Source: Clostridia bacterium
Lineage (GTDB): Bacteria; Bacillota; Clostridia; Oscillospirales; CAG-272
NCBI GenBank assembly: GCA_017416185.1
Contig: JAFQDF010000013.1
Coordinates: 62,001-126,000 of the forward strand
Length of the DNA stretch: 64,000 nucleotides
Direction of reading: 5' to 3'
The notes under the pieces: generated by a model
The model's database searches: none
What the model was told of the DNA's origin: nothing
The model's input: only the letters and a program-made list of their open reading frames with translations
Translations under genes and position numbers: made by a program
Shown here: positions 44,646 through 47,746 of the stretch, one piece after another
How positions within the stretch are numbered: position 1 is the stretch's first letter
How the letters are laid out: each line of letters begins with the position of its first letter

Positions 44646-44813
44646 ATATTACCTCGCAAAAGTATAATTAAACATCTTTTCAAGTATATGATATCACAAC
44701 CCGCTGTAACATTCAACATATTCGTTAAAGTTATTTTTAAAATATTCAGAACTTTCACAAATATATTAAATCTAAAATTACGGCAAAAGTATACTTGCTT
44801 ATAATGATACAAA

Positions 44814-44851
44814 AAACAGCACCCTGAGTACAAATGAACCGGGTACTGTTA
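44814..44851 (-). terminator. Terminator of the small XRE regulator gene
   Basis: AACAGTACCC pairs with GGGTGCTGTT (one G-T pair), followed by TTTTTGTATC on the minus strand; its arm overlaps the last codon. The rest of the 44646-44813 gap is AT-rich with no gene seen. Confidence 0.65.
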
Positions 44852-45049
44852 TTTTATCAATTCTATTATTTCATTTATATCACAGCTAAGGGCAAGGCAT
44901 ATACGCTCCAAAACAAAGCCATCGTATCTTTTCACCCTGTTTTTAAAGTAATTGTCTATTATCTGATATTGTATCCCCGTACGCTTTGCGAGTTCGTAAC
45001 GGCTGATACCGTATTTGTCAAGAGCCTTATCTAAGCATATTCTTATCAT
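44849..45049 (-). CDS. Small XRE/Cro-type HTH regulator (66 aa)
   Basis: A single-domain Cro/CI-like helix-turn-helix protein: YELAKRTGIQYQIIDNYFKN is the HTH core, ending with a short dimerisation helix (CALSCDINEIIELIK). GAGGTGAGG precedes the ATG. It is divergent from the AT-rich gene group at 45156-47674, with overlapping -35 boxes and AGTA/TACT-type palindromes in both promoters, so it is the probable repressor or switch of that group. Confidence 0.85.
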   Translation of the reverse strand: MIRICLDKALDKYGISRYELAKRTGIQYQIIDNYFKNRVKRYDGFVLERICLALSCDINEIIELIK

Positions 45050-45070
45050 AACCTCACCTCACTCAACTAT

Positions 45071-45122
45071 ATTTTAGTAAATATATACTCTCTTGACAAT
45101 TTACTTAATTAAGTATATACTT
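45071..45122. promoter_or_regulatory. Overlapping divergent promoters with AGTA/TACT operator palindromes
   Basis: Plus strand: TTGACA (45093-45098), 17-base spacer, TATACT (45116-45121). Minus strand: TTGTCA (45094-45099), 17-base spacer, TAAAAT (45071-45076). The two -35 boxes share five bases, so both promoters cannot be occupied at once. The plus spacer contains the perfect palindrome TACTTAATTAAGTA (45102-45115), its -10 lies in AAGTATATACTT (45111-45122), and the minus spacer holds AGTAAATATATACT (45076-45089). Confidence 0.75.
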
Positions 45123-45155
45123 ATATAAATATATAATGTATGAGAGGTGAGTATT

Positions 45156-45326
45156 ATGGCACGCTGTCCATATTTAGAGTATGAATCAAGAGGAGCCTTT
45201 TTTTCACAGGGAGACTATTACTGTGATCTCTGCAAGAAAAAGCTGTCCGAGGCGGAAATCAAAAACAAATGTAACGTTGATTACGGAGAAAGCTACACGG
45301 ATTGTCCCGTGTATAAGAACAGGTAG
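45156..45326 (+). CDS. Small Cys-rich protein (56 aa), function unknown
   Basis: Begins MARCPYLEYESRGAFFS and has five cysteines, as CPYLEY, YYCDLCKKKL, KNKCNVD and TDCPVYK, a spacing that could bind a metal or an iron-sulfur cluster. Similar short CPYL...CPIY proteins are common in Clostridia without a known role. GAGAGGTGA is seven bases upstream of the ATG. It is the first gene after the regulated promoter at 45093-45121 and is followed after ten bases by a membrane-protein gene. Confidence 0.75.
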   Translation: MARCPYLEYESRGAFFSQGDYYCDLCKKKLSEAEIKNKCNVDYGESYTDCPVYKNR

Positions 45327-45335
45327 GTGTAAGGT

Positions 45336-46238
45336 ATGGGATTTTTAAGTGTATTGGCAACTATAGGTAAGATATTGTTGGGAATCGTTATATTTATTGT
45401 CACGGTCACAATAATTATCCTTATCATCGCTTTAATAAAAAACAAAAAGGACGAAGAAAACGAAAGACTGGTGCGCGAAAGTGACGAGGGCGATATGATC
45501 TCCTCAAAGCTTTTGGAGCATATGCTTAAAGACGGCAGGATAACAAAAGAAAAGATAAACGATTACAGAGAAAGTATAAGACGTAAAAAAATAAGGCAAT
45601 ACAAAAGTACTGTAGAAAGAGCAGACTCAGGTGACAAATACGCCGCCAATGAACTCGTTGAATGCTTTAAAACCAACAAATTAACACCTGCTTTCGTTAA
45701 GGAAATAAGAAAGGAAATAGCCAAAGAAAAAGAAGAAAAAAGAAAACAAGAGGCAGAGAAAAAGAGAAGGATAGAGGAAGAAATAAAGAAATCCCTACAG
45801 TATAGATTTTCTAACAATCGTATCGTTAAAAATGCAATTGAAGAAATATCTAACGATATGCTCGAGGATATTAAAAAATCATATCCGTATCATATCGAGA
45901 AAATCAATATAGAACGTTGTCTTTTTGTATATTCTAATCAACTCAATTACGGTTATGGTAGAACTGTTGATTTTAATAGAGAAAGACTTTACGATTTGAA
46001 TTCTTCAGGCGAGAGGAGACTTGTTGCGGAAATAATCTCCGAAGGTATCAAAAAACAAATTTTGGTTAAATACCCTCAAGATCCTGCGGGTAATATTCCG
46101 CAAATAGCAATATCTTATGATAATTGCAGTACATCTCGTTATCGCTACGGTAAAGATGATGAAATAATATATTTCGTTAAGGCAACAATAAATTATACGT
46201 GTAAAAATCATAACTACAGAGAAAAAGAACCCTGGTGA
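45336..46238 (+). CDS. Membrane-anchored coiled-coil protein, function unknown
   Basis: 300 residues. A single N-terminal membrane helix (about 5-35), then a charged helical region with a strong Lys/Glu coiled coil at about 140-170 (KEIAKEKEEKRKQEAEKKRR), then a C-terminal domain (about 175-300) of mixed alpha/beta character that I do not recognise; it has NYGYGRTVDF and NCSTSRYRYG. Base composition is visibly more AT-rich than that of the genes around the locus. It lies in the same direction and close to the small Cys-rich gene and the DUF5685 gene. Confidence 0.7.
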   Translation: MGFLSVLATIGKILLGIVIFIVTVTIIILIIALIKNKKDEENERLVRESDEGDMISSKLLEHMLKDGRITKEKINDYRESIRRKKIRQYKSTVERADSGDKYAANELVECFKTNKLTPAFVKEIRKEIAKEKEEKRKQEAEKKRRIEEEIKKSLQYRFSNNRIVKNAIEEISNDMLEDIKKSYPYHIEKINIERCLFVYSNQLNYGYGRTVDFNRERLYDLNSSGERRLVAEIISEGIKKQILVKYPQDPAGNIPQIAISYDNCSTSRYRYGKDDEIIYFVKATINYTCKNHNYREKEPW

Positions 46239-46275
46239 ACACTGTACAATAAATACGAAAGATATAGAAGTATAT

Positions 46276-47202
46276 ATGTTTGGATACGTAAAGTCCTACA
46301 AGCCCGAATTAAAAATCAAGGAAATGTCTTTTTATAAAAGTGCCTATTGCGCGCTCTGCGATCAGTTAAAAAGAGATTATGGGTTTATCGGAAGATTTGT
46401 ATTGAGTTATGACATTACATTCTTATTACTCTGCTTGAATCATTTCGAATATGATGATAAGGAAAAAAGAAAAATACGTTGTCCTTATTCTCCCACGAGA
46501 GTTAAAAAAGTCACTTTATCAAAAGAAGCGTTACAGTATTCGGCATTTATAAATTACTGGCTTGTTATTCAAAAATTATTTGATGATTACATAGATGAAA
46601 GAAATATTATCAAATCGTTTTTTAGAAAAATCCTTATATCCAAAAAGCGGTATAAAGATATACGAATATGTTATGGGGATCATATCAACAGGCTTGAAGA
46701 CTCGCTTCACGTGGTATATATGAACGAAAGTGATATCAAGGATTCCTTTGATTTTGACAGAATCACAAATGCCTTTGGCTATTTCTTTGCCGAAATATTC
46801 ACCGTAATAAAAGCTGGTGAAGAGGACAAGGTGTTATTGAATAAACTGTTTTTTCAAATCGGAAAATGGATATACATTATTGATGCTTACGACGATTTTG
46901 AGAAGGACAGACAAAAGAATAAGTTTAATCTACTACTTTCTCTGAAAAATGAGGCTGATATGAGTAAAGAAACAGTTTTTGAAAAGACGTTATCACTTCA
47001 TTTTCAGTTAAAGCAAAAAATAGATATCCTACTTGACCAGTTGAAAAGTAAGCTTGACGAACCGTGTGTAATAAACATTTTATCTTACGGTTTGGATAAT
47101 GTGTTTTATGAGATAACAAACAAAAAATACAAAGAATTTGTGGAAAGGTTGACCGAATATGGAAGCAACAGCTTGGGATATATGGATAAACAGAATAAAT
47201 AA
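46276..47202 (+). CDS. DUF5685 family protein
   Basis: 308 residues. The family opening is MFGYVKSYKPELKIKE followed by SAYCALCDQLKRDYGF, with further Cys at 69 (RCPYSP), together with C25/C28 a possible metal site. Almost all alpha-helical. Two Asp-rich motifs stand out: KLFDDYIDERN (Asp 103, 104, 107) and IDAYDDFEKDRQKNKFN (Asp 203, 206, 207, 211), about 100 residues apart on predicted helices. This recalls class I isoprenoid synthases of the squalene/phytoene type; that link is my inference, not a family annotation. It overlaps the next gene by 44 bases. Confidence 0.8.
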   Translation: MFGYVKSYKPELKIKEMSFYKSAYCALCDQLKRDYGFIGRFVLSYDITFLLLCLNHFEYDDKEKRKIRCPYSPTRVKKVTLSKEALQYSAFINYWLVIQKLFDDYIDERNIIKSFFRKILISKKRYKDIRICYGDHINRLEDSLHVVYMNESDIKDSFDFDRITNAFGYFFAEIFTVIKAGEEDKVLLNKLFFQIGKWIYIIDAYDDFEKDRQKNKFNLLLSLKNEADMSKETVFEKTLSLHFQLKQKIDILLDQLKSKLDEPCVINILSYGLDNVFYEITNKKYKEFVERLTEYGSNSLGYMDKQNK

Positions 47203-47674
47203 CAGTTCTGTTGACGATATAGACACCGAAATATTATGTTTGGAAAAAACAAATATGCCTTATGTTGAAAAGAATTTGAAATTAGGCTATCTTTATTACA
47301 GTAAGGATTTTCTCGGTACCGCCACCAACATTTTCAAAAGTCTGTCTAAAAAGATTTCTTCTGAAAGAACAAATTTTGAATTTATTAAAGAAAATGAACA
47401 GGGACTCAATATTTTATATATGGGTTTTAGGCTTGAACCTGACGGATGCGGTGGGTTTGAAATCATCGAAACCGGGTGTGGAGCAGATTGCTGCGGTCCG
47501 GTTTGCGGTTGTATAGGAATCGCTGCGGTAATGGCTTGTTGCGGTATAAATTCAGATGATATTACAACATGTGATACGGAAGATGGTCAGGGTTGTTTGG
47601 ATAACGGTATAAATAGTTGTTGTAATTGTGGCGAATATTGGTGCGGAGATGGAAATCCCAATTCAATTTGTTGA
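47159..47674 (+). CDS. Cys/Gly-rich protein overlapping DUF5685, function unknown
   Basis: 171 residues in a different frame, with its first 44 bases inside the DUF5685 gene. The N-terminal 95 residues are helical, with a possible TPR-like hairpin (LKLGYLYYSKDFLGTATNIF). The last 78 residues contain 15 cysteines, for example GCGADCCGPVC, MACCG and NSCCNCGEYWC, around a short hydrophobic stretch (IGIAAVM). Cys-rich partners after DUF5685 genes recur in Clostridia as far as I recall. The ribosome-binding site is modest (AAAGG, ten bases away). There are no peptide-modification enzymes beside it. Confidence 0.7.
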   Translation: MEATAWDIWINRINNSSVDDIDTEILCLEKTNMPYVEKNLKLGYLYYSKDFLGTATNIFKSLSKKISSERTNFEFIKENEQGLNILYMGFRLEPDGCGGFEIIETGCGADCCGPVCGCIGIAAVMACCGINSDDITTCDTEDGQGCLDNGINSCCNCGEYWCGDGNPNSIC

Positions 47675-47711
47675 CTTTAAACACTTTTACCTTTAATGAA
47701 TTTTTTAACAT

Positions 47712-47739
47712 AAAAGACGATGCACTCGCATCGTCTTTT
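47712..47739. terminator. Bidirectional terminator between convergent genes
   Basis: AAAAGACGATGC-ACTC-GCATCGTCTTTT, a 12-base-pair perfect stem with A- and T-tracts, between the Cys-rich gene and the 1086-residue surface protein gene. Confidence 0.9.
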
Positions 47740-47746
47740 TGGTTTA

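Follow-up and report, generated by a model that had tools for sequence, protein, structure and literature searches.

The pairs ComQ/ComX and PalQ/PalX demonstrate that an enzyme of the isoprenoid-synthase fold can prenylate a peptide which is encoded alongside it (PMC10853753, PMC13290415). All characterised peptide prenyltransferases of this kind, which resemble trans-isoprenyl diphosphate synthases, target a tryptophan and possess a glutamine just in front of their second motif (PMC13290415). Whether bacteria prenylate cysteines with systems of their own is described as largely unknown (PMC8669142). Here we report on a stretch of 64,000 nucleotides from a Clostridia bacterium (assembly GCA_017416185.1, contig JAFQDF010000013.1, positions 62,001 to 126,000; henceforth "the window"), which harbours a cassette of five genes coding, among others, for a protein of the family DUF5685 and for a 171-residue protein with a cysteine-rich C-terminal tail. 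Genes for DUF5685 are common, being present in 218 of 295 sampled genomes of the order (about three quarters), yet almost nothing has been published about them; the searched literature, which did not extend to subscription journals and preprints, provided a single paper, in which the domain is merely listed, and other published work may exist. As a serious though tentative possibility we propose that DUF5685 prenylates the cysteine tail of a partner encoded next to it, and that the cassette of the window was acquired horizontally and is probably controlled by a divergently encoded regulator of the XRE type.

The DUF5685 protein of the window matches the family profile PF18937 over residues 1–275 with 209.6 bits against a gathering threshold of 26.7 (E 7.8e-62), and a sequence-based search of solved structures with it retrieved nothing meaningful. 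Two AlphaFold2 (AF2) models were computed, one of the window protein together with 63 relatives (predicted local distance difference test, pLDDT, 90.1) and one of a Clostridium tetanomorphum protein together with 56 relatives, mostly the same ones, from which the window protein was left out (pLDDT 94.3). The PDB matches which Foldseek returns for both models are almost all isoprenoid synthases, with probabilities mostly between 0.97 and 1.00 and template modelling (TM) scores of up to 0.64; the best 50 comprise polyprenyl and farnesyl diphosphate synthases, MoeN5 and terpene synthases, with a single UbiA-type exception in the first list. Both Asp-rich motifs of the protein are found at the C-terminal ends of helices (residues 83–108 and 182–206 in the model of the window protein), which is the placement typical of the isoprenoid-synthase superfamily. 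Asp103, Asp107, Asp203, Asp207 and Asn218 are invariant in 64 sequences, Asp211 is conserved in at least 90% of them, and the pattern DxxxDxxxD...(Y/F)N of the second motif recurs in 78 of 79 relatives. Based on these models it is highly probable that DUF5685 possesses an isoprenoid-synthase fold. The function, which a sequence-only reading of the window had given as unknown, can be narrowed to this extent, while the activity itself is a matter of inference.

Within the superfamily, squalene/phytoene synthases (PF00494) come nearest in motif layout; they share the predicted fold and two Asp-rich motifs, the second of the type (N/D)xxxDxxxD...Y, with similar spacing. An hhalign comparison with four such sequences from the phylum yields a score of 35.0 over 56 columns (P 4.5e-4) with the second Asp-rich motif in register, and none of 120 column shuffles scores above 22.2. 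DUF5685 differs from these enzymes in lacking any similarity at the Pfam level, in having its motifs about 104 residues apart, in carrying an extra set of conserved Cys and His residues as well as a beta hairpin near the N-terminus, and in its genomic setting, which is almost invariably next to genes of Cys-tail proteins and not to those of terpenoid pathways.

This last feature became apparent from a neighbour survey covering 80 loci from the genome collection plus loci of the order, 79 of which have readable neighbours. At nearly all of these 79 Clostridial loci the gene directly after DUF5685, often overlapping it, codes for a J-domain protein with a Cys-rich tail; the exceptions are few (L083, L126 and L139), and two further partners are J-like but lack an exact HPD. 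The canonical partner starts with a J domain, continues with a TPR-like part, which matches TPR models weakly, and closes with a Cys-rich tail of the type CADxLCECxGGDLIxCC. At least four cysteines are present within the last 50 residues of 83 of the 84 J proteins compared to 4% of other neighbours, and in 72 of the 84 a cysteine is the last or next to last residue, compared to 2.7% of other neighbours. A second, canonical DUF5685 with a J-domain protein next downstream is present in the window genome itself. The combination of DUF5685 with a Cys-rich partner, which the sequence-only reading had pointed out, turns out to be the local form of a pairing that is conserved in Clostridia, where it usually includes a J domain. 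The linkage of DUF5685 to Cys-tail proteins is well supported, and that it reflects a functional link is very probable. With its terminal cysteine string the canonical partner resembles the cysteine-string protein DNAJC5, and eukaryotes also possess farnesylated DnaJ proteins; it differs from both in being bacterial, in the TPR-like part between J domain and tail, and in its lipidation being putative.

The partner encoded in the window retains the canonical position, the overlap with the DUF5685 gene (44 nucleotides), the Cys-rich tail and the final cysteine. Of its 16 cysteines 15 are situated among the last 77 residues. Unlike DNAJC5 and the canonical partners it contains no J domain, giving neither a DnaJ match nor any Pfam hit, and a TPR-like motif can be discerned by eye only.

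At 47 Clostridial loci the third gene codes for a small membrane protein of no known family, for which we found no Pfam match and no meaningful PDB match by sequence; it is absent from the cassette of the window. Degenerate second DUF5685-like genes, devoid of the YCxLC motif, are seen at L195:3960-5380 and L196:4035-5431, each followed by this small membrane gene without a J protein. In 18 loci a gene for a membrane protein carrying a zinc ribbon at its C-terminus is found near DUF5685, mostly directly upstream (e.g. L081:3540-3941 and L084:6561-6989). The gene following DUF5685 in L127 (5581-6495) codes for a J-like protein with an extreme tail comprising 17 cysteines in the final 60 residues. 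Thermotoga maritima is the sole one among 14 control genomes with a DUF5685 match.

A second context in which DUF5685 adjoins acceptor-like peptides with C-terminal cysteines as well as isoprenoid genes is provided by one cluster in G260, a genome from the family to which the window genome belongs. Its DUF5685 is a divergent copy (PF18937 E 1.8e-24), which is preceded by three tandem homologous peptides, each ending in CCC, and which overlaps the gene of a radical-SAM/SPASM protein closest to peptide maturases. The upstream part of the cluster codes for a cis-prenyltransferase of the UppS type and for a membrane protein of the DUF92 family. Since G260 possesses another UppS outside the cluster, compared to one UppS in each of five other genomes checked, the copy within the cluster may serve the latter. 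The relatives of DUF92 include a phytyl-phosphate kinase. Clusters of ribosomally synthesised and post-translationally modified peptides (RiPPs) of the GrrM/DynA type likewise combine short peptides in tandem with a radical-SAM/SPASM maturase; to these elements the G260 cluster adds DUF5685, a second UppS, DUF92 and the CCC ending, and we found no described class with such a set. In phages and plasmids no further copies of the CCC peptides were found.

These neighbourhoods bear on the question of whether DUF5685 produces a small squalene- or terpene-like isoprenoid, with the Cys-tail protein acting as a chaperone or membrane tether rather than as the substrate. Such a role would agree with the resemblance of the second motif to squalene/phytoene synthases and with the gene content of the window genome, which has one PF00348 but no PF00494 enzyme and in which an orphan synthase is conceivable. 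Yet among the clustered neighbours of DUF5685 terpene-tailoring genes were not seen to recur, and the constant feature is the Cys-tail protein, replaced in G260 by the RiPP-like CCC peptides, which makes this role improbable.

In the mechanism which we favour, a prenyl diphosphate would be bound through the two Asp-rich motifs of an enzyme with a motif layout nearest to that of squalene/phytoene synthases. The prenyl group would then be transferred to one or several cysteines in the C-terminal tail of the protein or peptide encoded next door, leading to its membrane anchoring or maturation. We regard cysteine as the acceptor because the partner tails are rich in this residue, and prenyl transfer to cysteine is quite possible, if short of likely. 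The acceptor would in most Clostridia be the J-domain/TPR co-chaperone with its cysteine-string tail and in the window the 171-residue protein. A more general claim, namely that DUF5685 represents a cysteine prenyltransferase widespread among bacteria, with a fold new to this reaction, which modifies J co-chaperones in Clostridia and, in side branches, RiPP-like CCC peptides and accessory Cys-tail proteins like the one in the window, is conceivable but doubtful. If true, a testable pair of enzyme and substrate would link DUF5685 to the cysteine-string co-chaperones of bacterial Hsp70 and to what may be a new type of RiPP.

Several observations weigh against this proposal. The match in fold is distant though consistent, as Foldseek E-values reach about 2e-3 at best and TM scores lie between 0.5 and 0.64. 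In the hhalign test an unrelated J-protein control attains 25.3 (P 0.0085), which leaves a moderate margin, and towards polyprenyl synthases DUF5685 gives no signal at all. Neither by hidden Markov model (HMM) nor by hhalign can the window partner be aligned to J proteins; a homology to them, which we had considered, was not found in these comparisons, and since the alignment fails, its place as the counterpart of the J proteins rests on position and composition. The Cys-rich tails might instead bind metal or be acylated, and the proposed activity is deduced from fold, motifs and linkage. Finally, the characterised peptide prenyltransferases have a tryptophan target and the glutamine which DUF5685 lacks, and a DWTY motif with a conserved tryptophan is common to the G260 peptides.

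The last two points raise the question of whether DUF5685 might prenylate a tryptophan of its partner in the manner of ComQ and PalQ, with the Cys tail serving another purpose. It shares with these enzymes the isoprenoid-synthase fold, as predicted, and a candidate acceptor encoded in the same cluster; every characterised enzyme of the type modifies tryptophan (PMC13290415), and besides the DWTY of the G260 peptides an LWC is present in many J tails. The J tails, however, have no conserved tryptophan, and many of them show LLC or LIC instead. While ComQ and PalQ combine their tryptophan target with the glutamine (PMC10853753, PMC13290415), DUF5685 has an intact second Asp-rich motif, partners ending in cysteine and, in the consensus of 64 sequences (GKFIYLxDAYDDLEKD), no glutamine immediately before that motif. 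Tryptophan prenylation appears very improbable.

A further possibility is that DUF5685 has kept the fold but was repurposed or inactivated, now serving as a scaffold that contains metal and to which the Cys-tail co-chaperone is bound; the cysteines of the latter would hold metal or sense redox changes. Cys25, Cys28 and Cys69 are invariant in the 64 sequences and His72 is present in at least 90% of them, which suggests a metal site; this set may indeed bind metal, although the window copy carries a serine at position 72, a deviation that also speaks against our proposal. In addition, the partner tails are very rich in cysteine, and degenerate DUF5685 copies adjoin the third membrane gene without a J protein in some genomes. 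The aspartates of both motifs are, however, nearly invariant, as the binding of diphosphate and Mg would require, and one DUF5685 copy is clustered with UppS and DUF92. We hold a mere scaffold to be rather unlikely.

Table 1. Features of the cassette in the window and of the related cluster in G260 (positions refer to the window unless preceded by a locus name).
Feature	Position	Strand	Basis or remark
Inserted segment, ~3.1 kb	44660..47745	.	between polysaccharide deacetylase gene and InlB/List_Bact-repeat protein gene; sister-genome comparison
Predicted terminator 3' of XRE gene, boundaries approximate	44812..44852	-	RNA fold -18.8 kcal/mol, z -4.9
66-aa Cro/C1-type helix-turn-helix (HTH) regulator (XRE)	44849..45049	-	Pfam HTH_26 E 8.6e-15
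Predicted overlapping divergent promoters with two 14-bp palindromes, candidate operator	45071..45123	.	consensus matches only
56-aa Cys-rich protein, possibly zinc-binding	45156..45326	+	open reading frame (ORF); G113 relative
300-aa protein, hydrophobic N-terminal segment and coiled coil	45336..46238	+	ORF; elsewhere weak partial matches only
DUF5685 protein, predicted isoprenoid-synthase fold	46276..47202	+	PF18937 E 7.8e-62; AF2; Foldseek
C25-x-x-C28, with C69 (46480-46482) and usually H72 a possible metal site	46348..46359	+	conservation in 64 sequences
First Asp-rich motif D103-D104-x-x-D107	46582..46596	+	C-terminal end of helix 83-108
Second Asp-rich motif D203-xxx-D207-xxx-D211, then N218	46882..46908	+	profile in register with squalene/phytoene synthases
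171-aa Cys-tail partner	47159..47674	+	ORF; start inside DUF5685 gene; Cys-rich tail from ~47441; final residue Cys
Bidirectional terminator, probably belonging to flanking gene	47712..47739	.	fold -19.6 kcal/mol, z -7.8; same stem in G003
G260 RiPP-like cluster	L199:7752-14062		DUF92, second UppS, 307-aa and 196-aa proteins, three CCC peptides, DUF5685, radical-SAM/SPASM maturase

The architecture of the cassette exceeds chance expectation. As described by the sequence-only reading, all gene positions of which prove correct, an XRE gene faces four plus-strand genes (Table 1), whose spacing is tight, with gaps of 9 bp and 37 bp followed by the 44-nucleotide overlap of the last two. The module is more AT-rich than its surroundings, its computed GC content amounting to 0.337 compared to 0.457 in the remaining window. 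In the sister genome G004 (L175) the two flanking genes are merely 75 bp apart, representing an empty site, while in the sister genome G003 (L176) the same site is occupied by a different insert, about 6.3 kb long, which carries several XRE-type genes; hence the cassette of about 3.1 kb resides at a variable site. The G003 insert (L176:1900-8115) also contains short repeated ORFs with MQH/CNI motifs.

In a phylogenetic tree the DUF5685 of the cassette, a divergent copy, does not group with the well-supported clade of the DUF5685 proteins proper to the genus but stands on a long branch which renders its exact position unsure; an origin as a recent duplicate within the genus is rejected by this tree. 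For the 171-residue protein we found weak partial matches only and no convincing relative in the rest of the sampled order, a sister species included. The 300-residue protein has no match in the 295 genomes of the order besides the window's own copy, and the class sample contains weak partial matches only, none of them convincing. The suggested acquisition by transfer is supported by the low GC content, the empty sister site, the position of DUF5685 outside the genus clade and the two proteins without convincing relatives. A phage or plasmid as the source was considered and dismissed, as viral contigs contain no relative of the cassette DUF5685 and the matches in phages and plasmids are weak and partial; one match of this search is a canonical DUF5685/J pair amid housekeeping genes. 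A defence system was likewise discarded, PADLOC giving no match of note.

Whether the five genes belong together is a different matter. The neighbourhood comparison suggested with the sequence-only reading confirms the conserved pairing of DUF5685 with a Cys-tail protein, but the complete five-gene set was not found elsewhere, and the 56-residue protein and XRE recur without DUF5685: in G113 a relative of the former (73% identical) is encoded next to a divergent XRE at a site devoid of DUF5685. This recurrence, the difference of the insertion site between species and the lack of any find of the 300-residue protein elsewhere would agree with accessory genes having come together by chance at a hotspot of integration, any joint function being limited to DUF5685 and its partner. 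Against it stand the short gaps, the overlap, a single strong promoter match and the lack of any internal terminator found within the cassette, and we consider such an assembly unlikely.

This promoter match on the plus strand (TTGACA-17-TATACT) agrees with the consensus at 11 of 12 positions, and one on the minus strand (TTGTCA-17-TAAAAT) at 10 of 12, with the -35 boxes of both strands overlapping. As the total of promoter-like matches across the region is not above that of shuffled sequences, the use of these promoters is a prediction. Two overlapping 14-bp palindromes (45102-45115 and 45110-45123) lie in and beside the spacer and the -10 box of the plus-strand promoter, and only 0.16% of Markov-simulated sequences contain at least two of them. 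A single transcript under XRE control is plausible, as is control of the whole cassette by this protein. The presumed terminators at both ends were borne out, since both stems fold well. The right one, however, adjoins the same flanking gene in G003, which has a different insert, and therefore probably belongs to the backbone as the flank's own bidirectional terminator.

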